Below are positions 27,729 through 45,926 of a stretch of DNA of 64,000 bases, in pieces. Location: the NCBI RefSeq assembly GCF_000235425.2, contig NZ_KI912266.1:5776166-5840165 (forward strand). Direction: 5' to 3'. The translations under genes were made by a program, and so were the position numbers. The notes beneath the pieces are model-generated. The model was not told where the DNA came from, made no database searches, and saw nothing but the letters and a program-made list of their open reading frames with translations. How positions within the stretch are numbered: position 1 is the stretch's first letter; the number at the start of each line of letters is the position of its first letter. This stretch comes from Pseudofrankia saprophytica (GTDB taxonomy: Bacteria > Actinomycetota > Actinomycetes > Frankiales > Frankiaceae).

Positions 27729-27791
27729 GACTTGCACGTGCAAGTCCATCGATGTTAGCTTGCGTCCCGCGCCACTTGCTCGTGCAAGTGG
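27729..27791. promoter_or_regulatory. Two LacI-type operators upstream of GH43
   Basis: The perfect 18-bp palindrome gacttgcacgtgcaagtc (27729-27746) and the near-palindrome ccacttgctcgtgcaagtgg (27772-27791) are separated by 25 bases. They are identical to those between LacI and GH2. CG-centred palindromes are typical of LacI-family sites. Confidence 0.8.
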
Positions 27792-27910
27792 CCTGGGGCA
27801 CCCGGGCCGTGGCGGATCCAGGAGCACGCCATCGGCGGCTTCCGAGACGGCTTCGCCGGCGCGGGCGGGGTGTCACCGCCGAATTCCACGTGCAATCAGA
27901 GGGGCGTCGG

Positions 27911-28144: not shown

Positions 28145-29634
28145 ACGTCAACCCGATTCTTCCCGGTTTCTATCCGGACCCGTCGATCTGCCGAGTCGGC
28201 AGTGACTACTACCTGGCGACCTCCAGTTTTGAGTATTTCCCCGGGGTGCCGATCTTCCACAGTACGGACCTCCTGCACTGGGAGCAGATTGGCAACGTGC
28301 TCGACCGCCCCACCCAGCTGAACGTGGCCCCTGGCCTCGCCTTTGCCAGCGCCGGGATCTTCGCCCCTACACTGCGCCACCGTGACGGCCGGTTCTGGCT
28401 CGTCACGACGAACTTCACGGATGTCAGGAAGGGCCATCTCCTGGTCCACACCGACGACCCGGCCGGGGCATGGACCGACCCCGTCTACACTCAGGGGGCA
28501 TTGGGCATCGACCCCGACCTGGCCTGGGACGACGACGGCACCTGCTATCTAAGCTGGTCATACCCCGGAACGATCATGCAGGCCGCCGTCGACCCCGAGT
28601 CCGGCAAGCTCCTCTCCGAACCACAGGCGCTGTGGAGCGGGACAGGACTCGCCTTTCCCGAGGCACCCCACCTGTACCGCCACGGCGGCTGGTGGTACCT
28701 CGTCATCGCCGAAGGCGGCACCGAGCGCGGCCACACCGTGACCGTCGCCCGCTCCCGTTCGATCACCGGCCCCTTCGACGCGAACCCAGCCAATCCAATC
28801 CTCACCCGCAGCGGCACCGAACACCCGGTCCAGAACACCGGCCACGCCGACCTCGTGGAACTCCCCAACGGAGACTGGGCCATGGTCCACCTTGGGGTAC
28901 GCCCCCGCGGCAGCTCTCCCAAGTTCCACGTCAACGGCCGCGAAACGTTCCTCGCCGGCGTCGAATGGGCCAGTGACTGGCCCACGGTCGTCGAGGACCG
29001 ATATACCGTGCCGGTACGGCCCACCGCCTTCACCGACGACTTCTCCGCTCCGGCCCTACACCACCGGTGGATCTCACCCGGGACGAACCCGCAGACGTTC
29101 GCCGATCTCCGAGCCGGAGGCGGCGTCGTGCTGGCCGCCGGTCGGGCACCGGACGCACGCGAGGCCCGCCACCTACTCGCGGTACGCACCCAGGACATGC
29201 AGTGGCAGGCCACCGCGACGATCCCCGCCGGCGACGCCTGCCTGACCGTCCGTCTTGACGACGACCACTGGGCCGCCGTCGAACGGCGCGGCGACACACT
29301 GACCGCGCGGATGGTGCTCGGCCCCCTCGACCAGGCCCTCGCCACCGTCGCGGGGATCGGGCCACAGCATCCGCTCGCTGTCCGCGCCGTCGCGCATCCC
29401 GACGCGCATACCTTCCGCAGCGGACCCGACCAACTCGAACTGGGCTACCTCCGCGACGGCCAATTCCAGCCGCTCGCCGCCGCCGACGGCCGCTACCTCT
29501 CCACCGAAGTTGCCGGTGGATTCACCGGTCGCGTCGTCGGCGTCGAAGCCATCGGAACCGACGCCACGCTGGCGAACTTCGAGTACCAGGGTTTGGATGC
29601 CTCCACAGCAGCGGTGCAGGAAACCCGGAAATAG
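28141..29634 (+). CDS. GH43 beta-xylosidase / arabinofuranosidase-like enzyme
   Basis: The 497-residue cytoplasmic protein (no signal peptide) is full length. The five-bladed propeller begins NPILPGFYPDPSICRVGSDY with the catalytic base Asp in FYPDPS. The transition-state Asp is in GIDPDLAWDDDG and the acid Glu in FPEAPHLY. From about residue 300 a C-terminal beta-sandwich (FTDDFSAPALHHRWISPGTN) is typical of the xylosidase subfamily. It should release xylose or arabinose from short imported oligosaccharides. GTG 28141 has GAGGAG (28128-28133). It is preceded by duplicated LacI operators. Confidence 0.9.
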   Translation: MNVNPILPGFYPDPSICRVGSDYYLATSSFEYFPGVPIFHSTDLLHWEQIGNVLDRPTQLNVAPGLAFASAGIFAPTLRHRDGRFWLVTTNFTDVRKGHLLVHTDDPAGAWTDPVYTQGALGIDPDLAWDDDGTCYLSWSYPGTIMQAAVDPESGKLLSEPQALWSGTGLAFPEAPHLYRHGGWWYLVIAEGGTERGHTVTVARSRSITGPFDANPANPILTRSGTEHPVQNTGHADLVELPNGDWAMVHLGVRPRGSSPKFHVNGRETFLAGVEWASDWPTVVEDRYTVPVRPTAFTDDFSAPALHHRWISPGTNPQTFADLRAGGGVVLAAGRAPDAREARHLLAVRTQDMQWQATATIPAGDACLTVRLDDDHWAAVERRGDTLTARMVLGPLDQALATVAGIGPQHPLAVRAVAHPDAHTFRSGPDQLELGYLRDGQFQPLAAADGRYLSTEVAGGFTGRVVGVEAIGTDATLANFEYQGLDASTAAVQETRK

Positions 29635-30230: not shown

Positions 30231-31454
30231 TCAGCGGCCGTCGGTGGCGGCCGGATCGAGAATTTTGAACACCCGCTCGCGGAGCTCGGCGATCGCGCGG
30301 CCGGCGTCGGTGGCCGGCTCACGCGCGGGGAGCGAGAAGCTCGTGTACAGCACGCGGCGCTCCGACACGAGTGGCGGGGTCGACTCGTGGAGCGTGCAGC
30401 TCAGATGCACGGTCACGTCGCCCGCCTCGGTGGGGACGGCGACCACCGGCAGGTAGGGCCGAATCTTGGCGATCTCGACCGGCATCAGGGCACGGTGCGA
30501 ACCGGCGACGACCCGCAGCTGCCCGTTCTCCTCGCCGCTCGCGGTGACAGCGATGCCGACGATCGGTTTTGAACACCCATAGGCGTGCCGACCGAGGTGA
30601 CAGTCTCGGTGGAAGCTGACATCCGACGGGCCGGCCCTCACCTCGCGCGGCTTGACGAGCGCCTCCAGAACGCGCCCCGTCACCGGGGCTGACACGAGGA
30701 CGTCGTCGCCGGCCAGGGCGCGACGCAGATGGTCCCAGCGGTCACCACGGAGGATGGCCGCGATGGTCGGAGACCGATCTACGAACTCCTGAAGCCGGAC
30801 ACAGCGGCGGGAGCCGTCCGCCACGGTCGCCCACCACGACCGACCGTCGCCTTCGTAGTAGTCGGGCAGCGCACGATCGACATCAGCCGACACCTCCCGC
30901 ATGTCCGCCGGGTCGACCCAGCCGCGCAGGTGCAGAAACCCGGCCTCCCGCAGGAAATGGGCGACGTCCGTCGGGTCGTCGTCGGGAGTGAAGATCCGGC
31001 CGAGTTCGAGCCGTTCGCCGTCGCGGTCACGGAAGTCGACGTCGTCGGGCGTGACCGGCCACCCTTCCAGGAGGGTCAGCCAGAGCGAGTCCCAGATGGA
31101 GACGTCCCGCTCGGTGCCGCCGCGGTACCGAAGCTCGCGCGCGACGAGCATGGCGTTGAACGAACGCTGGTTCTGCACCCAGTCGGAAAAGTCGCCGGTG
31201 CTGAACGTTACAATGAGGGCGCCTTCGGCCACACCGCTGGCGGCCGTCAGTGTCCTCCCGTCGCTGGAGAAGGTCCACGCAGCACCACCCATCTCGATCG
31301 CGAGGGGCGGAGCGCCGAGGAAGTCGATTCCCTGCGCCACGAGATGGCCGTGACGCGCGGCAAGGTCCGGAAACTCGTTCGCGAGGAAATCCTCTATGTC
31401 GACGTGGCGCAGGTCGGCGTCCCAGCGGGTACGACGGTCCAGGGTTACAGGCAC
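30231..31454 (-). CDS. Phytanoyl-CoA dioxygenase-like Fe(II)/2OG enzyme with extra N-terminal domain
   Basis: The 407-residue protein has two parts. Residues 45-135 (PLAIEMGGAAWTFSSDGRTL, FSDWVQNQRSFNAMLVAREL) look like an SCP2/sterol-carrier or similar alpha/beta sensor domain. Residues 160-400 form the PhyH fold: HRDCHLGRHA supplies the His-x-Asp of the iron site, DVTVHLSCTLHES the distal His, and VSERRVLYTSF the 2-oxoglutarate Arg. It likely hydroxylates or oxidatively cleaves a small substrate. It is the last intact gene of the minus-strand glycosidase/transport operon, 113 bases after GH3, suggesting that the imported glycoside carries a group needing oxidation. Confidence 0.8.
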   Translation of the reverse strand: MPVTLDRRTRWDADLRHVDIEDFLANEFPDLAARHGHLVAQGIDFLGAPPLAIEMGGAAWTFSSDGRTLTAASGVAEGALIVTFSTGDFSDWVQNQRSFNAMLVARELRYRGGTERDVSIWDSLWLTLLEGWPVTPDDVDFRDRDGERLELGRIFTPDDDPTDVAHFLREAGFLHLRGWVDPADMREVSADVDRALPDYYEGDGRSWWATVADGSRRCVRLQEFVDRSPTIAAILRGDRWDHLRRALAGDDVLVSAPVTGRVLEALVKPREVRAGPSDVSFHRDCHLGRHAYGCSKPIVGIAVTASGEENGQLRVVAGSHRALMPVEIAKIRPYLPVVAVPTEAGDVTVHLSCTLHESTPPLVSERRVLYTSFSLPAREPATDAGRAIAELRERVFKILDPAATDGR

Positions 31455-31567: not shown

Positions 31568-33784
31568 TCACCGGCTCAGCTCCATCATGTGGGCCAGGGT
31601 TTCGTTCTGGAGCGCACGGCCGCCGAGATTCAAAAGCTGGCGGATGGGCATACTGGAGATCATTTCGAGCACCTCGGGGTTCCGGGCGAGTGACTCCTGC
31701 GCCTCTCCGGTCATTCCCTCGTCGAGTGACTGCCGGAACATCTCGCCGACGACGGGGTGGTCGAGCCATTCACCGATCGGGGAGTCGAGAGTGAGCGGCC
31801 TGTGGTCGGCGTCGCCGGTGAGGGTTATGGTCTGCTCGGCGACGATGTGCGCGGCGTTCTCGCCGATCTGGATCGTGTAGTCGCCGGGGGCGACGGCCCA
31901 CCGGCCCAGTTCGACGTCGTAGTAGGCGAAGGCGCGCCGGTCGAGGTCCAGAGCGACCGAGTAGGTCTCGCCGGGCCGCAAGGCGATCTTCGTGAAGGCG
32001 CGGAGCTCGCGGGTGGGACGGCGGGCGGGTCCCGCGGTGGTGGCGACGTACAGCTGTACGACGTGTTTGCCCGCCCGGTCACCGGTATTGGTCACGGTGA
32101 CATGGACCGTGGCGGTGTCGGCTCCGGTCACGGTGGTCCCGAGGCCGTCGGTGGCGAAGGTGGTGTAACCCAGCCCGTGGCCGAAGGGGTAGCGGACCGC
32201 GCGGTCGACGGTCTGGTAGTGGCGGTAGCCGACCATGACACCTTCGCCGTAGCGGACGTGGCCGGCCTCGCCTGGGAAGGTCAGGTAGCTGGGGGTGTCC
32301 TGCAGGCGCAGAGGAATGGTCTCGGCGAGGTGTCCGGAGGGGTTGGTGACGCCGAAGAGGATGTCGGCGATCGCGCCGCCCGCCGCCTGGCCAAGCAGCC
32401 AGCCCTCGAGGATCGCGTCGACCTCGTCGTGCCAGCCTTCGAGGGACACGACACCGCCGTTGGAGAGCACGACGACGGTACGCGGGGCAGCCGCGGCGAC
32501 CGCGCGGATGAGGTCCACCTGGTTGGCGGGCAGGTCGATGTGGGCACGGTCGACGCCTTCGGTCTCCTCGTCCGGCCCGACGAACACGACCGTCACGTCG
32601 GCATTCCTGGCGATCTCTACGGCCTGCGCACGCAGTTCCGACTGATCGTCCGCGCCGTCGGCCGCGTATCCCTGCGCGTACGTCACGGCCGTGCCGAGGG
32701 CGCGGATGCAGTCGAGGGGGATGTCGGTCTGGGTGGGGATGATGCGGGAGCTGCCGCCGCCCTGGAACCGGGGACCGGTGGCAAGGTCACCGATGACCGC
32801 GATGCGCGACCGGCGGTCCAGGGGCAGGACGTTCCCGTCGTTCTTGAGGAGCACGGCGCAGTCAGCGGCCAGCTCTCTGGCCAGGGCATGATGCTCGGCG
32901 ACTGGCAGGTCGCCCTCCGCCTCGGCGGCCAGGGTGGCCAGGGTGGCTATACGGCGTGCGCTCGCATCAACCAGGGACTCGTCAAGGGTCCCGCCGCGGA
33001 CGGCCCGCACGATCTGCAGGTCGTTGCCGCCGTTCGTGCCCGGCATCTGCAGGTCCAGCCCGGCGGCCAGGGCGGCGACGCGGTCATAGACGCCGCCCCA
33101 GTCGGAGACGACGACACCCTGAAATCCCCATTCGGTGCGAAGGACGTCCGTGAGCAGCCAGCGGTTCTGGGAGGCGGGCGTGCCGTTGACGCGGTTGTAG
33201 GACGACATCACCGTCGCCGGCCGCGCCTCGGTGACGATCCGCTCGAAGGCGGCGAGATAAATCTCCCGCAGGGTCCGCTCGTCGACGTCGGCGCTGACCC
33301 GCATCCGGTCGGTCTCCTGGTTGTTGGCCGCGAAGTGCTTCACCGACGCGCCCACGCCCTGGGACTGCAGGCCCCGCACGTGCGCGGCGCCCAGCACGCC
33401 AGCCAGCAGGGGGTCCTCCGAGTAGTACTCGAAGTTCCGCCCGCACAACGGCGAACGCTTGATGTTGACTCCCGGGCCGAGGACCACCGTGACGCCGAGC
33501 GCGCGGGCCTCGCGGCCGACCGCCACGCCCAACCGTTCGGCCACCTCGACATCCCAGCTCGAGCCCACCGCGACGGCGGGCGGCAGACAGGTAGCGGGCA
33601 GACTGTCGTTGATGCCGAGATGATCGGCGTCGCCTCGCTGGAGGCGGATACCGTGCGGACCGTCGGTGAGAACGATCGAGGAGATTCCGGCCTCATCAAG
33701 GGGCTTGGTTGTCCAGAAGTCACGGCCCGACAGCAGGGACGCCTTCTTTTCCAGGGGCAGGTCGGCGGGATCGGTCGACGGCAT
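31568..33784 (-). CDS. GH3 beta-glucosidase-type enzyme
   Basis: The 738-residue protein has the full GH3 order. The barrel starts LPLEKKASLLSGRDFWTTKP; KHFAANNQETDR and the nucleophile Asp in GVVVSDWGGVYDR follow. The alpha/beta sandwich has AADCAVLLKNDGNVLPLD and GPDEETEGVDRAHIDLP, and a fibronectin III-like C-terminus follows (VTVTNTGDRAGKHVVQLYVA). No signal peptide, so intracellular. The ATG at 33784 (MPSTDPADLP) has GAAAGG 8 bases upstream and is preferred over 33817. It should remove terminal beta-glucose or xylose from imported oligosides. Confidence 0.92.
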   Translation of the reverse strand: MPSTDPADLPLEKKASLLSGRDFWTTKPLDEAGISSIVLTDGPHGIRLQRGDADHLGINDSLPATCLPPAVAVGSSWDVEVAERLGVAVGREARALGVTVVLGPGVNIKRSPLCGRNFEYYSEDPLLAGVLGAAHVRGLQSQGVGASVKHFAANNQETDRMRVSADVDERTLREIYLAAFERIVTEARPATVMSSYNRVNGTPASQNRWLLTDVLRTEWGFQGVVVSDWGGVYDRVAALAAGLDLQMPGTNGGNDLQIVRAVRGGTLDESLVDASARRIATLATLAAEAEGDLPVAEHHALARELAADCAVLLKNDGNVLPLDRRSRIAVIGDLATGPRFQGGGSSRIIPTQTDIPLDCIRALGTAVTYAQGYAADGADDQSELRAQAVEIARNADVTVVFVGPDEETEGVDRAHIDLPANQVDLIRAVAAAAPRTVVVLSNGGVVSLEGWHDEVDAILEGWLLGQAAGGAIADILFGVTNPSGHLAETIPLRLQDTPSYLTFPGEAGHVRYGEGVMVGYRHYQTVDRAVRYPFGHGLGYTTFATDGLGTTVTGADTATVHVTVTNTGDRAGKHVVQLYVATTAGPARRPTRELRAFTKIALRPGETYSVALDLDRRAFAYYDVELGRWAVAPGDYTIQIGENAAHIVAEQTITLTGDADHRPLTLDSPIGEWLDHPVVGEMFRQSLDEGMTGEAQESLARNPEVLEMISSMPIRQLLNLGGRALQNETLAHMMELSR

Positions 33785-33878
33785 CAGTTGGACCTTTCGC
33801 GGAGGTGGTGGCGACACGACGGTTGAACACGTCGGGCGTGTCCGAGGTGACGGATGAAGAGGTGGACCTGGAGCGGCT

Positions 33879-35396
33879 CTAGGGAGCCTCGAGCACCGCG
33901 GCGAGATCCCGTTCGAGCGCCGGAGCCTGGGCGGGGAAGTACTCCAGGAGTGCCTGGAGCGAGGGCAGCGACGGTTCGGTTCCGCTGTCGGTGTTGGCGA
34001 ACTGCGGCAGGTGTTTCTGGAAGACGGTCCCCAGGGCGGCCCAGACGGCAGCGTCGTAGAAGAGCACCTTCAGCGGCGTGTCGAGGCCGTAGGCGGGCCG
34101 GGCGGGCGATGGGGTGTCGTACTCCCAGCGGTGGTCGCCCGCCTCGATGTCCACGGTGAGGTCCTCCGGGTGTCGTGGCAGGACGACCTGGGCGGTGGTG
34201 CCGGCCGGGACGGTCACCTCAACGGTCATCCGGCCGTCCGGTCCGTGTCGCCAGCCCATCCGGACCCGGCCGTAGGGGGTGTCGTGGGTGACGGTGGCAT
34301 GGGTGAGTCCGCCGCCGGGCCCTGGCGCGATGCGCATCCGGCTGTAACCGGGTTGGATGGGTTCGAGGCCGCCGACCACGCGGTGCAGCCAGCCGGCGAT
34401 GGCGCCGAGGGCGTAGTGGTTGAGGGACGTCATGTCGGTGTCGTTGAGCGTGTCGTCGGGACGGATGGCGTCCCACCGTTCCCAGATCGTGGTCGCGCCC
34501 TGCGTGACGGGATAGAGGAAGGAGGGGCAGGCGGTCTGGAGCAGCAGCCTGTAGGCGGTGTCCAGATGACCGGTGCGGGTCAGGGCATGCGTGACGAAGG
34601 GCGTACCGGCGAAGCCGGTGGTGATGGTGTGGTCGGCCTTCGCTACGAGAGCGGCCAGCCGGGCGCCGGCGCGCGGCTCCTGGCCCGGGGCGAGGATGTC
34701 GAAGCAGATGGCCAGTGCGTAGGCGGTGACGGTGTCGTTCGCGACCAGTCCGGCGGGGGTGACCCACCTGGTCGCGGAACGCCTGGCGGACCCGCTGGTG
34801 CAGCGCTGTGTACCTGGCCGCGTCACCGTCGTGGCCCAGCACCTCGGCGGTGCTGGCCAGCTCCCGGGTCGTCCGGCACAGGTAGGCGGTGGCGACCAGG
34901 TAGGCGTCCGTCTTCCCGCCGGCGGGGTTGTGGGCGGGCGCATCCGGTCGAGCCAGTCCCCGAGCTGAAACCCTGAGTTCCACAGGCCGTTCTCGTCGAG
35001 GCGGCCTGCCACACTGTCGATGAACGCGGTCATGGACAAGTACTGGCGGGCAAGGATGTCCCGGTTCGGCTCCCAGGTCAGCCGGCCGACCGCCCAGCCC
35101 TCACCGAGTACGGCACCGAGCGCGTTCCGTCCCGTCCGCAGCATGCTGGTGATGTCATGGCTGCTGACGGCCAGGCGGTGGTCGTAGGACGTCCACCCCG
35201 GCGTGAGCACCTCGTTACCCGCCCGACCGCCGTCGACGTGGGCCTCGACGAGCCCGAGCGCGGTGACGTGCAGGCTGGCTCTCACCAGCCCCTCGCCGAC
35301 GGTGAACTCGCGGCGCAGATACGGCGCCGGCACCGGGATCTCCGCGACGGCGCGGAAGGAAGGGATTATGAAGGAGGCCCGCCAGGAAAGTGACAT
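33879..35396 (-). pseudogene. GH78 alpha-L-rhamnosidase, deleted and frameshifted
   Basis: ATG 35396 (GAGGAG upstream) starts a GH78 N-terminal domain (YLRREFTVGEGLVRASLHVT, WTSYDHRLAVSSHDI, GAVLGEGWAVGRLTWE). Near 35050 it jumps into the catalytic (alpha/alpha)6 domain (SMTAFIDSVAGRLDENGLWN), losing several hundred residues including the usual acid region. A lost c near 34945 and an extra g near 34757 put the part TDAYLVATAYLCRTTRELAS in another frame. The end (TTIWERWDAIRPDDTLNDTD, MTSLNHYALGAIAGWLHRVV) is well preserved. It is about 506 codons, where the family has 900-1000. It cannot be a normal rhamnosidase. Confidence 0.85.
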
Positions 35397-35530
35397 CGTT
35401 TCTCTCACTCCTCGGTAATCCTGTCGGCCCGTTCGTCGGCGGCCGTCACCCGGATATCCGGCCGCGGAGCCGGCCGGTGAAGGCCGCGGACGCCTCCCCG
35501 GCCGGACCCATGACGAGCCGGCGCCGACCG

Positions 35531-36829
35531 CTACCGGACGAGGGCGAAGTTCTTCTTCGCCGGGTCGTACTCGAACCGGCGGTCCGGAATGGCGCCGTGC
35601 GGCGTGTTCTGGCTGTAGGTGGCCCTGTCCGTGTAGAAGGGGATCTGGAAGGAGCCGAGAGCGAAGCCCGCCCGTTGGAAGCTCTGGTAGGTGAGATCCC
35701 GGCCGGCCTTGTCGGCGATGGCGGTGAACAGGGCGAGATAGCGGCACGCGACCGACACCGACACCCCTGGTGCCGGCTCACCGGGCGGTACGGTATCCGG
35801 GTCCACGATCTTGAGGCCGGGTACGGCGGCCTCGACGGTGTGGACGCATTCCTGGTTGGCCGGTTCGGCGAAGTCGGTGCCGAGGCCGAGAGCCACTGCG
35901 CCCCGCAGCGTGCTGAAGTCGTGGGCACCGGCGTCGAACGAGTACGCGCGAGCCTGGCTGACGTCGGTGAACAGCAGCCTGGGCCGGTAGTCGGTCTTCT
36001 CGAGCTGCGCCGGGAACTGGGTCGAGATACCGCCGACCACGAGCACCGTGTCCACGCCGGCGGACTGGAACTTCTGGACGAAGACGCCGGTCTGCTGGGC
36101 GACCGCGGCCGGGTCGGTCAGCGGCGCGTCCAGCACCCCGCTCTGGACCGGGGTGACACCCATGCTCCGCAGCCCTGGCAGCACGGTGTCGTCCAGCACG
36201 GCCTTGTCACCGACGTAGGTCACGACCGCGACCTTCCTGCCAACCAGGTCGCCACGGAACAGCTTCAGGCCGTCGCCCACCTCGTCGCCGCCTCGCAGGT
36301 CCGAGAACCAGGGCGCCTGAGCCTTGGCGTAGCTCTCCGTCGTGAGCGAGCCGCCGACGAGGGCGGTCTTGTGGGTCTGGACGTAGCACATCGGCTCGTT
36401 GGTGTTGAGGTTGCCGACGACCGCGAAGACCTTTTCGTCCTCGATCAGGTGGACGCAGGTGTCCTGGGCGCCGGTCGGCGAGAGGACGTCGACCGCGCCG
36501 TACACGGGCACAATCTTGCGGCCGTTGATACCGCCACCCTTGTTGATCTTGTCAACCAGGGCCTGGAAGGCGGCCTTGTAGTCACCATGGTCGATGTGGA
36601 CGAACTGCTTGACCTTGGACAGGTCGGGATAGACGAGTCCGAGCTTGATGGTGTCGGCGGTGACGCCGGGCGAGATCGCCGGGGCGAGCGGCGCCGGCAG
36701 CAAACTCGGCGAAGAGGACGGTGTGGCGGCGTCGCCGCCCGACTCGACACTGCAGCCGGCCACGGCGAGCGCGGTGACCGCAGCGAGTAGTAATCCCAGA
36801 CGGCGTCGGCGATGGTGGTGCGGCCTCAT
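35531..36829 (-). CDS. Liv-type substrate-binding lipoprotein
   Basis: The 432-residue protein has a basic start, a hydrophobic segment (LGLLLAAVTALAVAGC) ending in a lipobox with Cys26, then a Ser/Pro-rich linker and the periplasmic-binding type I fold (IKLGLVYPDLSKVKQFVHID, KINKGGGINGRKIVPVYGAV, VVGNLNTNEPMCYV). These proteins present branched-chain amino acids or many other small organic molecules to LivHMGF permeases. Its partners are the two fused transporter genes just upstream in the operon; the glycosidase context suggests a glycoside or aglycone ligand. Confidence 0.9.
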   Translation of the reverse strand: MRPHHHRRRRLGLLLAAVTALAVAGCSVESGGDAATPSSSPSLLPAPLAPAISPGVTADTIKLGLVYPDLSKVKQFVHIDHGDYKAAFQALVDKINKGGGINGRKIVPVYGAVDVLSPTGAQDTCVHLIEDEKVFAVVGNLNTNEPMCYVQTHKTALVGGSLTTESYAKAQAPWFSDLRGGDEVGDGLKLFRGDLVGRKVAVVTYVGDKAVLDDTVLPGLRSMGVTPVQSGVLDAPLTDPAAVAQQTGVFVQKFQSAGVDTVLVVGGISTQFPAQLEKTDYRPRLLFTDVSQARAYSFDAGAHDFSTLRGAVALGLGTDFAEPANQECVHTVEAAVPGLKIVDPDTVPPGEPAPGVSVSVACRYLALFTAIADKAGRDLTYQSFQRAGFALGSFQIPFYTDRATYSQNTPHGAIPDRRFEYDPAKKNFALVR

Positions 36830-36930: not shown

Positions 36931-39798
36931 TCAGGTCGACGCGTTCGCCGCGGCGGGCGCGTGGTCGTCATCCGGTGTGCCGGGCGCCCGTCCGCTACGG
37001 GTGATGGCGCGTTCGTCGGTGCCGAGGTAGCTGGCAATGACCTTTGGGTCGGCGCGGACCACGTCGGGCACGCCCTCGGCGATGACACGGCCGGTCTCGA
37101 GGCAGTAGACCCGGTCGCTGATGCTCATGATCAATGGCATGTCGTGCTCGATGACGAGCATCGCGGCGTCGAGTTCGCGGCGGATCTCCTGGATGAGCGG
37201 TCCGAACGCCTCGGTCTCGCGTTGCGCTATCCCCGCGGTGGGCTCGTCCAGGCACAGCACCCGGGCGTCCAACGCGAGCAGCCCGGCGAGCTCGACGATC
37301 CGGCGGGTGCCAGTGGACAGGTCGGCGATGAGCGCTTCGGCGTAGCGGCCCAGGCCGAGGAAGCCGATCAGGTCGTCGGCCTCGGACTTCTTCGCGCGTT
37401 CGTTGCGGAAGGTGTGCGGCAGGTGCAGGGCCGTGGCCAGCAGCCCAGTGCGGCCGCGCGCCTCCAGGGCGACCTGCAGGGTCTGGCGGACGGTGAGTTC
37501 GGGGAAGAGGGTGGCGGCTTGGAAGGTGCGGCCGAGCCCGGCGCGGGCGCGGGCGGCCGGGTTCGCTGCGGTGATGTCCCGGCCGAGCAGCTCGACGGTG
37601 CCCGTCGCCGGGACGAATCCGCCGATCGCGTTCATCAGGGTGGACTTGCCGGCCCCGTTAGTGCCGATCAGTCCGACGATCTCGCCGGGCCCGACCTGGA
37701 GAGACACCCCGTCGACGGCGGTCAGGCCGCCGAACGCCACCCGAGCCTGGCTGGTCGTCAGCACGGGCCGGTCCGCGGGCCACGGCTCGCGGGCGGCGGC
37801 GCGGACCAGCGCCGCCGGGGCGCCACTGGCGATCTTGGTCGGGGGCGGGGCGCCGATCCGGCGTTCGGCGAGCCTCAGGACGGCGTCGCGGGCGGCGTAG
37901 CCGATCTGGACCAGCCCGCCGGGGAAGTACAGCAGCAGGACGAGCAGGCCAAGGCTGGAGGTCAGCAGGGGCACGACGTCGTTGTCGGGGAAGATCGCGG
38001 GCAGGCCGACGACCCACAGGGCGCCGAGCACCGGTCCGTATACCGATCCAAGGCCGCCGATGACCACGATGGACACCAGGGTGAGCGAGTCGCCGGTGAG
38101 GAAGAACTTGTCGGCGTACGGGACGTTCTGGACGGCGCCCGCGAGCAGGCTGCCGCCGAGGCCGGCGATGCCGCCGGCGAGCGCGAACGCGCGCAGCTTC
38201 ACCCGGGTGGCGGGCACGGTGTAGGCGGCAGCCGTCGCCGGGTTGTCGCGGACGCCGACCGTCGTGCGGCCGACGCCCGACCGGCGTAGCCGGGCGACCA
38301 CGGCCATCACGACCGCCAGAACGATCAGGACCAGGTAGTAATACGCGCGCTGGCTGGTGATGTCGATACCGAAAACCGTGCTCCGCGGGAACGACGCGAC
38401 GCTCGAACCCTCGTCGTGGAACAGGCCGAGGCGGTAGAGGTACTGCTCGGCAGCGATCCCGAACGCGAAGGTGCTGACCGCGAGCAGCAGCCCGCGTACC
38501 CGCAGCGCGCCGGCACCGACCAGCGCGGCGAGCGCGGCCGTGAGCAGGCAGGCGACCAGGACGGCCGCGGGGAACGGCAGGGCGTCCAGCGTGACGGTCA
38601 TGTCCCCGAAGGAGATCCGCAGGCCGCGGTTCAGGGCGGCGGCGGTGAGAGCGCCGAGGCCGGCGAAGGCCATCTGGCCGAGGGAGAGCTGGCCGGCCCA
38701 GCCGGTGAGGATCGTGACCGAGGCCGCGCAGATCGCCCAGCAGAGGATCACGGTGTAGAGCAGGTGCCGCGACGGCTGGGTGACCAGCAACGGCAGCACC
38801 ACGGCGATCAGCCCGAGCAGGAGCAGCGGGGCCCGTTCGAGGTGGCGGACCCACCACACGCCGCGCAGCCGGTCGGGAACCGGCCTGGTCTTCGGGGCGA
38901 AGGCAAAGGACGACGCATCGGTGTCACGCCCGCGGCTGACCAGGAACACCGCCGCCAGGACCAGCACGAGGATGACGAGGTCGGTCAGGCCCGGCTGGTC
39001 GAGCCAGTTGAACTGGATGAACGACTGGAGCAGGCCGAGCACGACGCCGGCGACCAGGGCGATCCGGAACGACGTCATCCGGGCGATGACCGCCGCGGCC
39101 AGCGCCCGCACCAGCGTGGTCGGGCCGAGGGTGGTGATCTGGGTCAGGGACTGGTTCTGCGCGGAGATCAGGATCAGGCAGAGGGTGCCGACCAGCCCGG
39201 CCGCCGCCCACACCGCGGTGGAGACCGTCTTCGGGCTGATCCCCTGCAGCCGCGCCAGTTCCGGGTTGTCCGCCGAGGCCAGCACCGTCCTACCGAGCAC
39301 GGTGCGCCCCAGGAACAAGCCCAGCAGGCTCGCGACGAGCGGAACCATGACCAGGACGCTCAGCTGCGCACCGGTGATCTTCAGACTGTCCACCGGCGAC
39401 CAGGTGCCGCCCCAGGGCACCGGGTAGCGCTCCGTCGAGTGGTCGTCCAGGTCCGGATATGAGGTGACGACGGTGAGCGCGAGTTGGGCGACACCGATGG
39501 TGGCGACCAGCAGGATCACCCGCGGCGCGGAGAACAGCCGGCGGACCACGGCCAGGTCGACGAGCGCGCCGAACACCGTCCCGACCGCCAGGGCGATGGC
39601 CAGGGCGATCCAGTACGGCACGTTCCAGCGCACAGCGAGCAGCGCGAAAAGGACGGAGCCGACGAGGCCCATGTTGGCGACGGCAAAGTTGATGACGCGG
39701 CTGGCGCGGTGGACGAGCACGATGCTGGTCGCGAGCAGGCCGATGACCAGTCCGGTGACGGCGCCGTCGAAGAGCAGTTGGGTGGTGGGCAGCTGCAT
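36931..39798 (-). CDS. LivH-LivM-LivG triple-fusion ABC transporter
   Basis: This 955-residue protein combines three normally separate subunits. Residues 1-290 are a LivH-like permease (TTQLLFDGAVTGLVIGLLAT, VINFAVANMG). Residues about 330-650 are LivM-like (TILTGWAGQLSLGQMAFAGL, RVKLRAFALAGGIAGLGGSL). Residues 690-955 are LivG ATPase: Walker A GTNGAGKST, signature LSTGTRRIVELAGLLA, Walker B VLCLDEPTAGIA, then H of DAAMLVIEHDMP. It lies 6 bases after the MFS-LivF gene, so they are co-translated and together make one complete importer with the lipoprotein 35531. Confidence 0.93.
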   Translation of the reverse strand: MQLPTTQLLFDGAVTGLVIGLLATSIVLVHRASRVINFAVANMGLVGSVLFALLAVRWNVPYWIALAIALAVGTVFGALVDLAVVRRLFSAPRVILLVATIGVAQLALTVVTSYPDLDDHSTERYPVPWGGTWSPVDSLKITGAQLSVLVMVPLVASLLGLFLGRTVLGRTVLASADNPELARLQGISPKTVSTAVWAAAGLVGTLCLILISAQNQSLTQITTLGPTTLVRALAAAVIARMTSFRIALVAGVVLGLLQSFIQFNWLDQPGLTDLVILVLVLAAVFLVSRGRDTDASSFAFAPKTRPVPDRLRGVWWVRHLERAPLLLLGLIAVVLPLLVTQPSRHLLYTVILCWAICAASVTILTGWAGQLSLGQMAFAGLGALTAAALNRGLRISFGDMTVTLDALPFPAAVLVACLLTAALAALVGAGALRVRGLLLAVSTFAFGIAAEQYLYRLGLFHDEGSSVASFPRSTVFGIDITSQRAYYYLVLIVLAVVMAVVARLRRSGVGRTTVGVRDNPATAAAYTVPATRVKLRAFALAGGIAGLGGSLLAGAVQNVPYADKFFLTGDSLTLVSIVVIGGLGSVYGPVLGALWVVGLPAIFPDNDVVPLLTSSLGLLVLLLYFPGGLVQIGYAARDAVLRLAERRIGAPPPTKIASGAPAALVRAAAREPWPADRPVLTTSQARVAFGGLTAVDGVSLQVGPGEIVGLIGTNGAGKSTLMNAIGGFVPATGTVELLGRDITAANPAARARAGLGRTFQAATLFPELTVRQTLQVALEARGRTGLLATALHLPHTFRNERAKKSEADDLIGFLGLGRYAEALIADLSTGTRRIVELAGLLALDARVLCLDEPTAGIAQRETEAFGPLIQEIRRELDAAMLVIEHDMPLIMSISDRVYCLETGRVIAEGVPDVVRADPKVIASYLGTDERAITRSGRAPGTPDDDHAPAAANAST

Positions 39799-39804
39799 GA
39801 CGGG

Positions 39805-42126
39805 TCAGCCGCCTTCCCGGCCGAGGAACACGGCACGGGCCAGGTCGTCGCGTTCGGCCAGCTCGCGGGCTGGGCCGGTGAACCGGACCTGGCCCTTCTC
39901 CAGGAACACGGCCCGGTCGGCGATCGCCAGCGCGATGTTCAGCGACTGTTCGACGAGGATGATCGTCAGCCCGTCGGCCTTGAGCCGTTCGAGGATGGCG
40001 AGCAGGTCCTGCACCACGATGGGCGACAGGCCGAGTGAGAGCTCGTCGATCAGCAGCACCTCGGGGTCGTGCAGCAGCACCATCGCGAGCGCGAGCATCT
40101 GCTGCTGCCCACCCGACAGCGACCCGGCACGCTGCGACAGGCGGCCGGCCAGGTCGGGGAAGAGGTCGAGCACGTAGGCGAAACGACGATCGCGGCCGGC
40201 GCCGTCCCGGCGCAGCTGGAAGGCGCTCATCTCGAGGTTCTCCTGGACGGTCATCGCGCCGAAGACGCCCTTGCCGCCCGGCATCAGCCGCACGCCGTAG
40301 CGCCCGCGCTGTTCCGGGGCGACGTAGGTGATCGTCCGGCCGTTCAGCCGGACGACGCCTCGAGACGGGGTGCCAAGCCCGCAGACGACCTTCAGGATCG
40401 TCGACTTCCCGGCGCCGTTGGTGCCGAGCAGGGCCAGCGTCTCGCCGCGCCGGACGTCGAAGGCGACGTCGAACAGCACCTGCACGTTGCCGTAGGAGAA
40501 GTCGATGTTGTTGACCTGCAGCACCGGGATGTTCTCCGGGTCGGTCCGCTGCCGGTCGCGTTCGGCCAGCTCCTCCTGGAGATCCGCGACAACCAGCGAC
40601 AGGTCGTTCTTCACGAAGGACGCGCCGCGGATCAGCATCAGGCCACCGACGAGGGTTGTCGGAACCCCGATCACCAGGACCGCCACCCGCGGGTCGTAGG
40701 CGTCGCTGAGCAGGCCGGACAGCAGCGCGCCGCCGGTCGCGCCGACGAAGAACATGTAGACGGCGGACATCGCGATGCCCAGGCCGCGCAGCCGGTAGGG
40801 CACCACGGACTGCATCACCGGGCCGACCATCGAGAACGCGACCGAGGCGAACACCGCGCCCGGAATGCTGGCCAGCATGAAGCCGATCCAGTTCGGCATG
40901 AACCACTGCACCGGCAGCAGTACCGCGCCCGGCAGCACGCACAGCCCGAGCAGCGCCACCGCCCGCGCGGGATCCCGGTGGTAGAGCCGGTCGTACCGCG
41001 GCCCGACGACCGGCAGCGCCAGGAGGAGCGCGGCGCCGCCGAGCGAACCCATCAGGCCCCGCTGGAAGGTCGACATCCCGTAGTGGTCCTCGGCCCACAG
41101 GTTCGCGAGGATGCTCGTCGTGAACAGGCTGAAGCCCAGCGCCGAGAAGGCAATGATCGCGGTCTTCACCGTGCGGATGCGCATCAGCCGGGCGAACGCC
41201 GCCTCCACCGAGATCGGCATCGGCTCGGCGTCCTCGATCACCTCCCCCAGCACCGACCTCATCTCGTGCTGGCCCCGTGGCGGCTCCGGTAACCGAAAGG
41301 CGACAACCGCCACGGCCATCGCGGGTAGGCCGAGGACCAGGAACGGCCAGCGCCAGCCATCGTCCCCGCCCGCCCAGGTCGCAATGGCCGCGACCAGCAG
41401 AGGGCTGAGGGCTCCCGCGGCACGGGCCGCACCGTAGGTCGTCGCCGAGATCCGCCCCCGCACCCCGATCGGATACACGTCCGCGAGCAGCGAGCCGTGA
41501 ACCGAGTTGTTGCTCGACTTCGCCACCCCGACACCGAAGCGGGCCAGGAAGAACAGGAACGCGTTCGCGGCCAGCCCCGACGCGAGCACCATCAGCGAGA
41601 ACGCGACACCCGCCCAGCCGATCACCCGGCTACGCCGGCACCGGTCCGCCAGCCATCCCATCGGCAGCGCACCCAGCACTAGGAAGGCACCGGCCGCGGC
41701 GGAGATGAACACGATCGCGCCGTCACTCAGGCCGAACGCGTCCCGGATGTCCGGCGCCAGCACCGCCAGGGCCGCCGACTCCAGTTCGTCCAACGCGGAC
41801 AGCACCACCAGCGTCAGGAACGTGAAGGCGCCGCCCACGGCCAGCCCCTGACGCAGCGACAACGACTCACCGCCGACCCCCGGCAGCAGGTCGTCGGCGA
41901 AGATCACCTCGCGGCGCGCCTCAGCCTGGCGTTCCCGGCGTTCCGCCTCGGCGTCGATCAGGCCGGCCGCCAGCCCCGCGACCGACCGTGTCGGGCTCGT
42001 CTCCTGGGCGGCGGCTGGTGCCTGACTGGCCGGCACGGCGGCCACCCGCGCCGAGCCGGCTCGCGCGCTCACGGCTCGGTCCGATCGCGGCGGACCGCCG
42101 TTAATCCCGACTTCCTGTACACCCAT
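39805..42126 (-). CDS. MFS transporter fused to LivF ABC ATPase
   Basis: The 773-residue protein is unusual. About residues 65-510 are a 12-helix MFS domain (LTLVVLSALDELESAALAVL, GWLADRCRRSRVIGWAG, SLLADVYPIGVRGRISATTY). Residues 530-773 are a complete LivF ATPase: Walker A GTNGAGKST, LSGGQQQMLALAMVLL signature, Walker B VLLIDELSLGLSP with catalytic Glu, and E-Q-S region LVEQSLNIALAIAD. The ATPase should pair with LivG of the next gene. The MFS half may be an additional porter or a membrane anchor. RBS AGGAAA before ATG 42126. Similar fusions occur in some actinobacteria, but their mechanism is not understood to my knowledge. Confidence 0.9.
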   Translation of the reverse strand: MGVQEVGINGGPPRSDRAVSARAGSARVAAVPASQAPAAAQETSPTRSVAGLAAGLIDAEAERRERQAEARREVIFADDLLPGVGGESLSLRQGLAVGGAFTFLTLVVLSALDELESAALAVLAPDIRDAFGLSDGAIVFISAAAGAFLVLGALPMGWLADRCRRSRVIGWAGVAFSLMVLASGLAANAFLFFLARFGVGVAKSSNNSVHGSLLADVYPIGVRGRISATTYGAARAAGALSPLLVAAIATWAGGDDGWRWPFLVLGLPAMAVAVVAFRLPEPPRGQHEMRSVLGEVIEDAEPMPISVEAAFARLMRIRTVKTAIIAFSALGFSLFTTSILANLWAEDHYGMSTFQRGLMGSLGGAALLLALPVVGPRYDRLYHRDPARAVALLGLCVLPGAVLLPVQWFMPNWIGFMLASIPGAVFASVAFSMVGPVMQSVVPYRLRGLGIAMSAVYMFFVGATGGALLSGLLSDAYDPRVAVLVIGVPTTLVGGLMLIRGASFVKNDLSLVVADLQEELAERDRQRTDPENIPVLQVNNIDFSYGNVQVLFDVAFDVRRGETLALLGTNGAGKSTILKVVCGLGTPSRGVVRLNGRTITYVAPEQRGRYGVRLMPGGKGVFGAMTVQENLEMSAFQLRRDGAGRDRRFAYVLDLFPDLAGRLSQRAGSLSGGQQQMLALAMVLLHDPEVLLIDELSLGLSPIVVQDLLAILERLKADGLTIILVEQSLNIALAIADRAVFLEKGQVRFTGPARELAERDDLARAVFLGREGG

Positions 42127-42203: not shown

Positions 42204-44702
42204 TCACGGCCGCTGTCTCGCCGGGAACGGGTCCGCGGCGTCGCGTGGTCGGGCCTCGATGCGGACAGTCGAGGGCGTGCATTCCCGCGCGGTGAGGGTG
42301 ACGGACACCGTTCCCGGGGCCGTCGGGCGAATGACCGCGAGGGCCCGCCCGTCGAAGGTGGTCCGGGTGGTGTCGAAGAAGTTCTCCGTCGGCTTCGGGT
42401 CGGCGCTGCCGAATCCCTGGAGCTCCCCGGGTCCGGTCAGCTCGACGGACACCGGGCGGTCGGCGGTGTTGTAGAAGTTGCCGGCCTGGTCGACGAGGGT
42501 GATCGAGATGAAGGCGAGGTCGCCGTCATCGGCGCCGATCTCCGCACGGTCGGCCTCGACCCGGAGACGGACCTCGCCGGACGCCGAGCGCAGAACCGTG
42601 CGTCCGATTTCCTCGCCGTCGGTGTAGGCGACGGCGAGGATCTCGCCCGGCTCGTAGACGGTCTCGAACTCGGCTCTGAACCGGTTCTTCTCCCCCGCGG
42701 AGGCGATTCCCAGCGAGCGGCCGTTGACCAGGAGCTCGACCTCGTCCGCGGCCGAGTAGACGTCGACGTGGATCGGTCGGCCCTCGTGGCCGTCCCAGGT
42801 CCAGCTGGAGATCGAGTCGGTCCACGACCACCAGGTCGCCACCCTGACCGGCTGGCCGTGCCGTGCCGGCCGGTGCACGGCCAGGTACGGCTCGGAGCGC
42901 AGGCCGAAGACGATCTCACGGTAGTAGGAGGCGGGACGGCGATGCCCGGTGATGTCGAGGTCCCCGCACCACGCCGCGAGCCAGGGATAGGCCGCCTGGT
43001 GATCGGTCACGCTGGCGGTCGTGGTTCCCTCGCCCTGGTACTCGATCCGGCCGAGCCCCGGCTCGCCGAGATAGTCCCAGCCGGTCCAGGTGAAGTCGCC
43101 GATGACGTGGCTGTTGTCCTGGACGAGCCGCCAGTTCGTGTCGATGTCGGAGGGAAACGTCTCGGTCCCGAGAATGACCCGGTTCGGGAACAGCGCGCGA
43201 TCCATCGCGTACCGCGATTCCAGGTAGTTGTAGCCGGCCACGTCGAGGTAGGACATGGCTTCCGCCGTCTTCGACGTGATGACGTCGGAGGTCATCAGGA
43301 CCGGCATGAACTCCCGGAACTGGGTCATGAACGTGTTGACGTCGACATTCTCAGCGCTTTGCGGCTCGGATCCACCGGCGAACGCGGCGAACAACTCCGG
43401 ACCGCCGGCCAGCAGCCCGTTGACGGCGTTCGTGACCAGCCGCGTGCCATCCAGCGCGCGCACCTTCTCGGCGATCCGCCGCCCCAGCGCCGCACCGGCG
43501 GCGCTGCCCGTCTCGGGAATCTCGTTGCCGATCGAGTAGAGGACGACGCTGGGATGGTTGAAGTCCTTGTCCACCATCGCACGCACGTCCGACTCCCACC
43601 ACGTGGTGAAGTCGAGGGCGTAGTCCTCGCCGGACTTCGACCTTGTCCACGTGTCGAAGAGCTCGTCCACCACGAGCATGCCCAGCCGGTCGCAGGCGTC
43701 GAGCAGCGCCTTGCTGATCGGGTTGTGCCCGCTGCGGATCGCGTTGAAGCCGGCCTGTTTCAGGATCTCGACCCGGCGTTCCTCCGCCCGGTCGATCGTG
43801 GCCGCGCCGATGACGCCGTTGTCATGGTGGATGCACGCGCCGCGCAGCTTCACCGTTCGCCCGTTGAGCCGGAAGCCACGGTGTGGGTCGACGCCGAGGG
43901 TGCGGATGCCGAACCGCGTCAGGTCCTCGTCGAGCAGCTCGTCGCCGGCGCGCACGCTGGTCCGGCAGGTGTAGAGGAAAGGATCATCGACGCTCCACAG
44001 GCCTGGCTCCGCGACGGTCAGCCGCTGGCGCACGGTCTCGGTGGTGCCGGGGAAGAGAGTCGCCGGAGCGACGTCCTTGCCGACGACCGCGCCGTCCACG
44101 TCCACGATCTCCGTGACGACATCGACGGTTCGGGTGACCGCGGCCTCGTTGCGCACCTCGGTCGACACCGTGACGACGGCGAACTCGTCGTCTACGACCG
44201 GAGTCGTGACGCGCACGCCGTCCGGGGCCACATACACCAGGCCACCGAGAAGGATCTTCACGTTGCGGTAGATGCCACCACCGGAGTACCAGCGCGTGTC
44301 GTCCTGGCTACGCGCGTCGACCAGGATCTCGTTGTCCTGGCCGTACCGCAGCAGATGATCGGCACGCATCTGGAAGTTCGAGTACCCATTAGCGCACCGC
44401 CCCGCCAGGTCACCGTTCAGGTACACCCGGGCGTTTCGGTAGACCCCTTCGAACTCGAAGGTGACCCGGCGGTGCCGGTACTCGTCGGGCACGAAGAACG
44501 TCTTCTTGTACTCGTAGGCCCCGGCCGGGAAGTAGCCGCGCTGCGCCGCCGTCGTGTCGGTGCTGTCGCGTTCGCCGTGCACCATCGCGTCGTGCGGCAG
44601 TCGGACCGGCTCCCAGCCGGTGTCGGCCTGCCCCAGGATCGTCAGGAACGCCTCGGCCTTCGGCCGGAAGAACCAGCCGTCGTTGAACGATGTGCGAATC
44701 AA
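42204..44702 (-). CDS. GH2 beta-galactosidase/glucuronidase-like glycosidase
   Basis: The protein of about 832 residues has the GH2 domain order: jelly roll (GWEPVRLPHDAMVHGERDST, WYSGGGIYRNVKILL), immunoglobulin-like domain and TIM barrel (GACIHHDNGVIGAATIDRAE). The acid/base Glu is in YSIGNEIPE and the nucleophile Glu in ILGTETFPSD. A DUF4982-type domain and a C-terminal Ig-like domain follow (VELTGPGELQGFGSADPKPT). No signal peptide. TTG 44702 is preferred because GAGGGG lies 6 bases upstream; GTG 44723 is the alternative. It is the first gene of the operon and divergent from LacI. Confidence 0.9.
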   Translation of the reverse strand: MIRTSFNDGWFFRPKAEAFLTILGQADTGWEPVRLPHDAMVHGERDSTDTTAAQRGYFPAGAYEYKKTFFVPDEYRHRRVTFEFEGVYRNARVYLNGDLAGRCANGYSNFQMRADHLLRYGQDNEILVDARSQDDTRWYSGGGIYRNVKILLGGLVYVAPDGVRVTTPVVDDEFAVVTVSTEVRNEAAVTRTVDVVTEIVDVDGAVVGKDVAPATLFPGTTETVRQRLTVAEPGLWSVDDPFLYTCRTSVRAGDELLDEDLTRFGIRTLGVDPHRGFRLNGRTVKLRGACIHHDNGVIGAATIDRAEERRVEILKQAGFNAIRSGHNPISKALLDACDRLGMLVVDELFDTWTRSKSGEDYALDFTTWWESDVRAMVDKDFNHPSVVLYSIGNEIPETGSAAGAALGRRIAEKVRALDGTRLVTNAVNGLLAGGPELFAAFAGGSEPQSAENVDVNTFMTQFREFMPVLMTSDVITSKTAEAMSYLDVAGYNYLESRYAMDRALFPNRVILGTETFPSDIDTNWRLVQDNSHVIGDFTWTGWDYLGEPGLGRIEYQGEGTTTASVTDHQAAYPWLAAWCGDLDITGHRRPASYYREIVFGLRSEPYLAVHRPARHGQPVRVATWWSWTDSISSWTWDGHEGRPIHVDVYSAADEVELLVNGRSLGIASAGEKNRFRAEFETVYEPGEILAVAYTDGEEIGRTVLRSASGEVRLRVEADRAEIGADDGDLAFISITLVDQAGNFYNTADRPVSVELTGPGELQGFGSADPKPTENFFDTTRTTFDGRALAVIRPTAPGTVSVTLTARECTPSTVRIEARPRDAADPFPARQRP

Positions 44703-45029
44703 CCGACGCCCCTCTGATTGCACGTGGAATTCGGCGGTGACACCCCGCCCGCGCCGGCGAAGCCGTCTCGGAAGCCGCCGATGGCGTGCTCCTGGATCCG
44801 CCACGGCCCGGGTGCCCCAGGCCACTTGCACGAGCAAGTGGCGCGGGACGCAAGCTAACATCGATGGACTTGCACGTGCAAGTCGGACAGCGGCCACGCC
44901 AGCGGGACGAGAGACAGGAGACAGGCGGCCATGCCAGAGGCAAGCATCGGACGCCGTGTCACAGCCGTGGACGTCGCTCGCGAGGCCGGGGTCTCGCGAG
45001 CCACCGTGGGATACGTCCTGAACGCCACC
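44546..45029 (+). repeat. Inverted duplicate of the LacI/GH2 promoter region (copy 2, original)
   Basis: This copy lies in an intact context (complete GH2 and LacI genes on its sides), so it is the donor. It pairs with 27584-28067 in inverted orientation, about 16.5 kb away. Confidence 0.92.
44822..44884. promoter_or_regulatory. Two LacI-type operators between GH2 and LacI
   Basis: The near-palindrome ccacttgcacgagcaagtgg (44822-44841) and the perfect palindrome gacttgcacgtgcaagtc (44867-44884) have centres 44 bp apart. They lie 47-109 bases before the LacI start and 120-182 before the GH2 start, so one regulator could control both directions. Confidence 0.85.
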
Positions 45030-45926
45030 CCAGGACAGACGATCCCGCAGACCACCCGCCTACGCGTGCTCGACGCCGCGACCCGGCTCGGCTACCGGCC
45101 GAACAGCGCCGCGCGCGCCCTGGTCAGCGGCCGAAGCAGGATCATCCTGCTCGTCCTGCCCGACTGGCCTCAGGAGTTCAGGTTCAGACACTTCCTGGAC
45201 GAGGCATCCCTCGCCCTGGACGAGTCCGGCTACTCACTCGTCACCTACACCCGCCATCCCGGCACCCGCAGCCGACCGCTGTGGGAGTCACTCAACCCCG
45301 ACCTCGTGATCGGCCTGGTCCCGTTCGACCCCGAGGACGTCGCCTCGATGCGCAGCTGCGGGATCACCAGACTGTTCCCAGACCCCGACAGCGACGACCC
45401 GGCCAACATCTCGACTGCGGTCAGCGCCGGACCGGAACTCCAGGTCGACCACCTGATCGACCGAGGCCACAGCCGGCTGGTATACGCCACGTTCAAGGAA
45501 CCACCCCCATACTCGCTGGTCCTGGCGCGCCACCGCGCCGCAGGCGAACGCGCCCGCTCGCACAACCTGCCCGCACCCGACCTCGTCCAGATCGACCACC
45601 GGGACGGGTCCGCCGACAACGCGATCCGCCGGTGGCGCGACACGGGCATCACGGCCGTCATCGCCTTCAACGACCTCGTCGCCGCGGCCGTCGTGGGCGC
45701 CGCCGTCACCGCGGGGCTACGGATACCCGAGGACATCGCCGTCATCGGACACGACGACAGCCCACTGGCCGCCCTACTAGTCCCCCCACTGACGACCATA
45801 CGGTTCGACACCCCCACCCTCGGGCGCGACTTCACCGACTTCGCCCTCCACAAACTAGAAGGCCGACCCCGACAGAACCCAACCCCCTCCCACCGCGCCA
45901 CCCTCATACACCGCAAAACCACCTAA
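44931..45926 (+). CDS. LacI-family transcriptional regulator
   Basis: The 331-residue protein has an intact headpiece (TAVDVAREAGVSRATVGYVL, hinge RLGYRPNSAARALVSGRS) and a periplasmic-binding-like core (IILLVLPDWPQEFRFRHFLD, AVIAFNDLVAAAVVGAAVTA, IPEDIAVIGHDDSPLAALLV, PPLTTIRFD). It should bind the CG-centred palindromes upstream and repress GH2, its operon, GH43 (through the duplicated operators) and itself until a sugar binds. GGAGACAGGCGGCC precedes the ATG. Confidence 0.93.
   Translation: MPEASIGRRVTAVDVAREAGVSRATVGYVLNATPGQTIPQTTRLRVLDAATRLGYRPNSAARALVSGRSRIILLVLPDWPQEFRFRHFLDEASLALDESGYSLVTYTRHPGTRSRPLWESLNPDLVIGLVPFDPEDVASMRSCGITRLFPDPDSDDPANISTAVSAGPELQVDHLIDRGHSRLVYATFKEPPPYSLVLARHRAAGERARSHNLPAPDLVQIDHRDGSADNAIRRWRDTGITAVIAFNDLVAAAVVGAAVTAGLRIPEDIAVIGHDDSPLAALLVPPLTTIRFDTPTLGRDFTDFALHKLEGRPRQNPTPSHRATLIHRKTT

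Follow-up and report, generated by a model that had tools for sequence, protein, structure and literature searches.

A Liv-type ABC importer with a major facilitator superfamily domain fused to its LivF ATPase in a glycosidase operon of Pseudofrankia saprophytica

In a stretch of 64,000 nucleotides of the Pseudofrankia saprophytica genome (contig NZ_KI912266.1, positions 5,776,166 to 5,840,165 of the forward strand; hereafter the window), we found a Liv-type ATP-binding cassette (ABC) importer encoded by two adjacent fusion genes. One encodes LivH, LivM and LivG as a single chain, and in the product of the other LivF lies behind a major facilitator superfamily (MFS) domain. ABC importers and MFS carriers are separate textbook classes that use primary and secondary active transport, respectively. 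The locus thus combines known kinds in a new way, a Liv ABC importer being covalently joined to a conserved MFS domain and tied to glycoside use in Frankiaceae. It would be a new kind of system only if the ATPase were shown to drive the MFS. Anatomy, conservation and gene context of the locus were observed directly. Our preferred reading, in which we have middling confidence, is that LacI controls a Liv-type importer which takes up glycosides intact and that each of its complexes contains one Spinster-like MFS carrier. In a library of open-access papers, searched by phrase matching only, no description of an MFS-LivF fusion or of this locus was found.

The original prediction described LivF as fused behind a 12-helix MFS domain, and this was confirmed in one open frame by both Pfam and AlphaFold. 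Pfam placed MFS_1 at residues 111-459 (E 2.4e-35) and ABC_tran at residues 553-695 (E 8.1e-26). The AlphaFold model of the 773-residue protein, with a mean predicted local distance difference test score (pLDDT) of 84.1, shows 12 membrane-length helices between about residues 100 and 501 (318-335 and 337-349 were taken as one), followed by a linker helix (505-528) and an ABC ATPase from residue 536 onward. The LivF half was matched best by the UrtE and LivF models of NCBIfam at about 190 bits, under their curated cut-offs. When the full model was compared with Foldseek, 1ji0 was the best fold match; since all matches listed (the best 50) were ABC proteins, a model of the MFS alone was made. A missed stop or a frameshift had been named beforehand as the finding that would explain the fusion away. 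We regard such an artefact, or an error of assembly, as practically ruled out, because the same fused frame is conserved in many independent assemblies. The possibility of an oddity of one genome is likewise ruled out by a conserved family across Actinomycetota.

The remaining Liv parts are complete. In the 955-residue chain, Pfam detected BPD_transp_2 in two stretches, ABC_tran and BCA_ABC_TP_C, which places LivH at about residues 1-292, LivM at 322-640 and LivG at 678-930, in agreement with the single chain predicted earlier. In NCBIfam the LivG model matched one ATPase and the UrtE and LivF models the other, with all scores under the equivalog cut-offs. The binding lipoprotein encoded next to this chain belongs to Peripla_BP_6 (E 1.4e-13). 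The system therefore resembles E. coli LivFGHM-LivK of the HAAT family (TCDB 3.A.1.4) in its two BPD_transp_2 domains, its LivG and LivF ATPases and its Peripla_BP_6 lipoprotein. It differs in that LivH, LivM and LivG are one chain, LivF is placed behind an MFS, the context is one of glycosidases and the LivG signature reads LSTGT. This form replaces the usual LSGGQ-like signature, and its LSTG part was invariant in 25 sequences, the window included. LivH-LivM-LivG chains of equal build occur elsewhere in the same genome (loci L194, L201 and L209); within 8 kb of these, however, neither an MFS nor a glycosidase of the tested families was matched. L201 and L209 have LivF as a gene of its own; for L194 no LivF was listed. 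An MFS joined to another kind of partner is known from LplT-Aas, in which the carrier is fused to an enzyme that acts on its substrate, but that partner acylates lipids and is not an ABC ATPase.

The fusion had also been held to be unusual, and here the survey of its relatives led to a different conclusion: the fusion is real, but it is not peculiar to this locus. The P. saprophytica genome alone (9,978,592 bases in two contigs) encodes three MFS-LivF proteins, 100%, 86% and 37% identical to the query. We scanned genome contigs with the MFS and linker only, so that the query held no LivF, and obtained 64 loci, among them records of Frankia, Parafrankia and Pseudofrankia. Of these loci, 57, a set that includes several per genome, have the MFS and LivF in a single frame, each with LivH beginning no more than 400 bases downstream. 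The other seven encode MFS proteins of low similarity with no in-frame LivF. We treat two of the 57 with caution, as the labels of their metagenome bins are odd (Bifidobacterium breve, L072; Acidobacteria, L107). An MFS match was present in at least 10 of 58 sampled relatives (E <= 1e-30), at least 10 of 35 genomes of the order (E <= 1e-40) and at least 20 of 396 genomes of the phylum (E <= 1e-25, P. saprophytica itself counted). These counts are lower bounds that refer to MFS matches, with in-frame LivF checked for fetched loci only; among the fetched loci of the phylum sample, LivF was in the MFS frame in 19 of the 20 positives, G362 being the exception. In the class of genome G328, taken as Acidimicrobiia, at least 78 of 246 genomes have an MFS match (E <= 1e-20). 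In 67 of these 78, at least one listed match lies in an open frame of 700 residues or more, long enough for the fusion; eight have only shorter frames and for three the match was not listed, LivF not having been checked in each genome. Carriers of MFS-LivF are thus found in Frankiaceae, some Streptomycetaceae and many Acidimicrobiia, and one plasmid record, from Embleya, carries the MFS in an unannotated stretch (68.7%). Since the fusion is conserved across Actinomycetota, is present in three copies here and gives several MFS matches in some other genomes, the joining of ABC and MFS parts was probably selected.

The non-redundant fused proteins, 85 in number, have two architectures. MFS-LivF accounts for 71, plus one (L068) that the profile had split, and MFS-LivF-LivG for 13. 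The latter type is accompanied by a LivH-LivM gene, which was listed beside it in six of ten fetched loci. In the other four, an antisense call masks one partner (MFS-LivF-LivG in L150, L151 and L153; LivH-LivM in L158), as gene calling based on third-position GC content sometimes picked antisense frames on GC-rich DNA. Five loci of this type also have a gene downstream for a protein of 564-615 residues, which we take as a binding protein; one was scanned and gave no Pfam match. Both architectures have an identical set of domains, which suggests one MFS per complex. A few MFS relatives have no in-frame LivF (L131 and L162, which are one gene, L145 and L152). In L162 (6644-9559, minus strand), a stretch of about 550 residues without a Pfam match precedes this MFS.

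To place the fusion in a phylogeny, we used 75 LivF domains, 48 of them fused (picked for spread from the 85) and 27 without an MFS. On the LivF tree the fused label requires two changes, compared to a mean of 22.2 for shuffled labels. A single origin of the fusion is therefore likely, although the shuffling shows clustering and does not prove one event. On the MFS tree, the window protein groups with Frankiaceae beside Streptomycetaceae, within a wider set that is mostly labelled Acidimicrobiia among the named records. Pairwise ratios of non-synonymous to synonymous substitution rates against nine relatives were 0.16-0.32 for the MFS and 0.12-0.20 for LivF. By these ratios, purifying selection acts on the MFS half almost as strongly as on LivF.

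The MFS domain is closest to Spinster carriers. By sequence, the nearest solved proteins are HnSPNS (E 9.6e-20), human SPNS1, DgoT and SPNS2, and the MFS-only model (pLDDT 86.5) gave SPNS2, SPNS1 and DgoT as top Foldseek matches. Spinster carriers are described as moving lipophilic compounds, with both directions possible (PMC9440201; PMC13192786). For HnSpns, the first of these reports lists as required D41, R42, the motif A residues D87 and R91, R122, the proton switch E129 in transmembrane helix (TM) 4 and D142 (PMC9440201). These residues were placed on the window protein by hidden Markov model (HMM) alignments. D41 corresponds to E116, a conservative change, and D87/R91, R122 and D142 correspond to D161/R165, R196 and D216. 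In contrast to the Spinster proteins, R42 is replaced by S117, so that the Asp-Arg pair of TM1 is lost, and the proton switch E129 is replaced by K203; the fusion to an ABC ATPase is a further difference. The retained residues are well conserved in the family: D161 in 75 and R165 in 84 of the 84 rows with a letter, and R196 in 75 and D216 in 84 of the 85 sequences. R356, R447 and the linker-helix residue D508 are kept in 85 of 85. Position 203 is Lys in 63 of the 85 sequences, Gln in seven and acidic in one. No acid was found at this position in eight aligned standalone MFS relatives either, and its loss is therefore not peculiar to the fusion. An Arg equivalent to R42 occurs in 11 of 13 MFS-LivF-LivG rows, compared to four of 72 MFS-LivF rows, two of which are gapped in TM1. 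One subclade (L027, L112, L127-L129 and L142-L144), which includes the third copy of the P. saprophytica genome (L027, L112), has an altered motif A Asp and/or R196, and because of these changes a non-transporting role is possible there. Together with the substitution rates, the alignments suggest a selected MFS domain that is probably still cycling, without the usual Spinster switch driving it. Two other assignments were considered and rejected. One, made by eye, put the Asp-Arg pair of TM1 on D113-E114; the other was a charge-swapped salt bridge E114-K203. They were dropped because D41 falls on E116 and R42 on S117 in the HMM alignments and because the pair 114-203 ranks only 1548th in covariation among 77815 long-range pairs.

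The original prediction had this Liv-type system serving glycosides. A tie to glycosides is supported by the glycoside hydrolase (GH) genes around the fusion. In the P. saprophytica genome, GH genes lie beside all three MFS-LivF loci (the third has GH3 only), whereas no match to GH1, GH2, GH3, GH43 or GH78 was found within 8 kb on each side of the next 20 Liv-type loci, that is, the hits ranked directly after the three MFS-LivF proteins in the LivF-like search of this genome. Of these control loci, 18 have LivF listed (the exceptions are L194 and L196), and none has an MFS listed. The same 20 loci also gave no match to the Gfo/Idh, PhyH, aldo-keto reductase or binding-protein queries and one weak match to LacI. 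Elsewhere, 23 of the 57 MFS-LivF loci have GH genes of the tested families: nine of ten in Frankiaceae, five of eight in Streptomycetaceae and nine of 39 others. A marine/sponge-type clade of five loci (L090, labelled Sva0996, L092-L094 and L096) has GH3, Gfo/Idh, PhyH, an aldo-keto reductase and a binding protein in each, four of these families having been checked by Pfam on examples. The ten fetched MFS-LivF-LivG loci had no such GH3-Gfo/Idh-PhyH set and one GH1 match (L168). In a crude hydrophobicity scan, the glycosidase N-termini tested had no hydrophobic signal-like stretch, whereas the two binding proteins tested had one. This difference suggests that the substrate is probably imported as an intact glycoside.

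The operon had further been proposed to be under LacI control, for which the upstream region provides a plausible basis: a divergent LacI gene and, between LacI and GH2, two operator-like palindromes 44 bases apart, one with an exact core at 44869 and one with a single mismatch at 44825. A pattern search of the window that allowed up to two mismatches found four sites, compared to 0.17 expected; these are the two sites and their copies in an inverted repeat described below. In the LacI-GH2 gaps of six relatives, CACTAGC...GCTAGTG is kept in five (L026, L030, L033, L036 and L038), and the sixth (L034) has a weaker variant. With a fixed palindrome pattern, eight of 210 loci matched, namely the same five and the overlapping same-contig copies L056, L059 and L060; this one pattern had no match in L028, L029, L031, L032, L035, L039 and L041. 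These candidate operators point to control of the operon by LacI.

Based on these data, the importer could work as follows. In the presence of the glycoside or of a sugar freed from it, LacI would leave its operators, and the lipoprotein would capture the intact glycoside. Judged by homology, and with all domains present, LivH-LivM would import the glycoside, driven by the LivG/LivF ATPase pair, and GH3, GH2 and GH43 in the cytosol would free the sugars. The MFS, held beside the importer at a ratio of 1:1 by its fusion to LivF, would carry another, related compound, most likely exporting the freed aglycone or a product. The capture step and the role of the MFS are the least certain. Several observations weigh against this scheme. 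No solved relative of the binding protein was found at E <= 0.001 in the solved-structure searches, and the changes E129 to K203 and R42 to S117 make standard proton-driven Spinster export doubtful. The one-sided chance for three of three compared to none of 20 loci is 1 in 1771 (calculated by hand), but two of the three are 86% identical paralogues, the stretches searched were 19-20 kb for the cases but about 16.7 kb for the controls, and the queries came mostly from MFS-LivF loci. Moreover, the flanks have no GH of the tested families in 30 of the 39 other loci, one of ten in Frankiaceae and three of eight in Streptomycetaceae. Given that many loci are without GH, glycosides alone fail to explain the MFS across the family, although a missing GH in a short locus is weak evidence, as flank lengths differ and some contigs are short.

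It is also possible, though doubtful, that the MFS no longer transports and has become a structural or regulatory membrane module, such as an anchor or a sensor of lipids or of the proton motive force, that stabilises or gates the Liv complex. The constant fusion in the 57 closest scan relatives, the near absence of acids at the proton-switch position, the scarcity of the R42-equivalent Arg in MFS-LivF rows and the subclade that lost or altered its motif A Asp and/or R196 would all fit such a module. However, most sequences retain motif A, R196, D216 and R447, the 12-helix carrier fold is complete in the models and a few MFS relatives exist without LivF. We consider it unlikely that the MFS is a second importer, of released mono- or disaccharides or of a co-substrate, for which the fusion would merely set stoichiometry and expression. 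Its place in the same operon and the presence of DgoT, a sugar-acid:proton symporter, among the best sequence and fold matches are in line with this, but the TM4 Glu of Spns proton coupling is absent here, and fusion of an MFS sugar importer to an ABC ATPase is not known to us. The ability of the Spns fold to power either of two opposing directions (PMC13192786) would also suit a second importer. Pfam and NCBIfam match families of urea and branched-chain amino acid transporters, but it is very unlikely that the Liv part is an ordinary importer of amino acids that lies in a glycosidase operon by chance, since GH neighbours are conserved in several genera and missing at the 20 other Liv-type loci, and the binding protein is far from the solved Leu/Ile/Val-binding proteins (best E 0.0097).

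Returning to the importer with a built-in carrier, in a more far-reaching variant the LivF ATPase would drive or gate the MFS as well, which would make the MFS an ATP-coupled member of a superfamily whose known members are otherwise secondary carriers. This is a long shot. The residues for alternating access are mostly kept, the proton-switch acid is gone in 84 of 85 sequences and the linker Asp is invariant. If true, a single ATP-hydrolysing engine would power both import and the MFS route within one complex. With this fusion, the question of whether substrates or energy are shared between an ABC engine and an MFS carrier can be put to a defined system. Liv-type importers are usually annotated as transporters of amino acids; the present locus suggests that glycosides may be the cargo of such importers in some actinobacteria.

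The features of the locus are listed in the table. On the minus strand, the gene order is GH2, MFS-LivF, LivH-LivM-LivG, binding lipoprotein, GH78 remnant, GH3 and PhyH dioxygenase, with LacI divergent. The MFS-LivF and LivH-LivM-LivG frames, both found precisely where the original prediction put them, are separated by six bases, and order and spacing of the genes suggest a single transcript from GH2 to the PhyH dioxygenase gene.

Table. Coordinates of the features of the MFS-LivF locus within the window
Feature	Position	Strand	Evidence
MFS-LivF, complete gene, 773 aa	39805..42126	-	ATG start, no internal stop; Pfam; conserved frame
MFS domain, residues 95-501, 12 predicted membrane helices, Spinster-like fold	40624..41844	-	Pfam MFS_1, AlphaFold, Foldseek, HnSPNS match
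Linker helix between MFS and ATPase, residues 505-528	40543..40614	-	AlphaFold model; conservation (D508)
LivF-type ATPase domain, residues 535-773	39808..40524	-	ABC_tran; UrtE/LivF models; 1ji0 fold match
LivH-LivM-LivG fusion gene, 955 aa	36931..39798	-	ATG start, no internal stop; Pfam
Substrate-binding lipoprotein, Peripla_BP_6, lipobox-like AVAGC	35531..36829	-	Pfam
GH2 glycosidase, first gene of the operon, conserved neighbour	42204..44897	-	Pfam, NCBIfam; real start probably within the open frame
GH3 glycosidase, N-terminus not signal-like	31568..33817	-	Pfam, NCBIfam, hydrophobicity scan
GH78 rhamnosidase remnant, middle of the protein gone	33879..35747	-	Pfam, comparison with relatives
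PhyH-type dioxygenase, last co-directional gene	30231..31454	-	Pfam
LacI-family repressor, divergent from the operon	44931..45926	+	Pfam
Operator-like palindrome CCACTTGCACGAGCAAGTGG	44822..44841	.	Pattern search; related palindromes at relatives
Second operator-like palindrome GGACTTGCACGTGCAAGTCG	44866..44885	.	Pattern search
GH43 glycosidase behind the duplicated LacI/GH2 promoter region	27670..29634	+	Repeat and domain search

The operon is flanked by a perfect inverted repeat of 484 bases (27584-28067 and 44546-45029). It copies the LacI/GH2 promoter region, including both palindromes, to a position ahead of the GH43 gene, the product of which has a complete catalytic domain. An N-terminal remnant of LacI is found at about 27569-27682 on the minus strand. 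The glycosidase neighbourhood as first described needs one correction: GH2 and GH3 are present and, like GH43, have open frames, but GH78 is internally deleted, the part that corresponds to about residues 115-428 in its relatives being absent. At 29667-29912 on the plus strand, opposite to the remnant and past the GH43 gene, lies a stretch 45-51% identical to residues 137-216 of GH78.

Beyond LacI, the window encodes two more Peripla_BP_6 binding proteins (46017-47228 and 51848-53188, both plus strand), on either side of a GGDEF protein (48420-50135). Further away, we found a protein of 1228 residues that combines TPR repeats with a CHAT protease domain (19523-23209, plus strand) and a Mutator-family transposase (13800-15110, minus strand).

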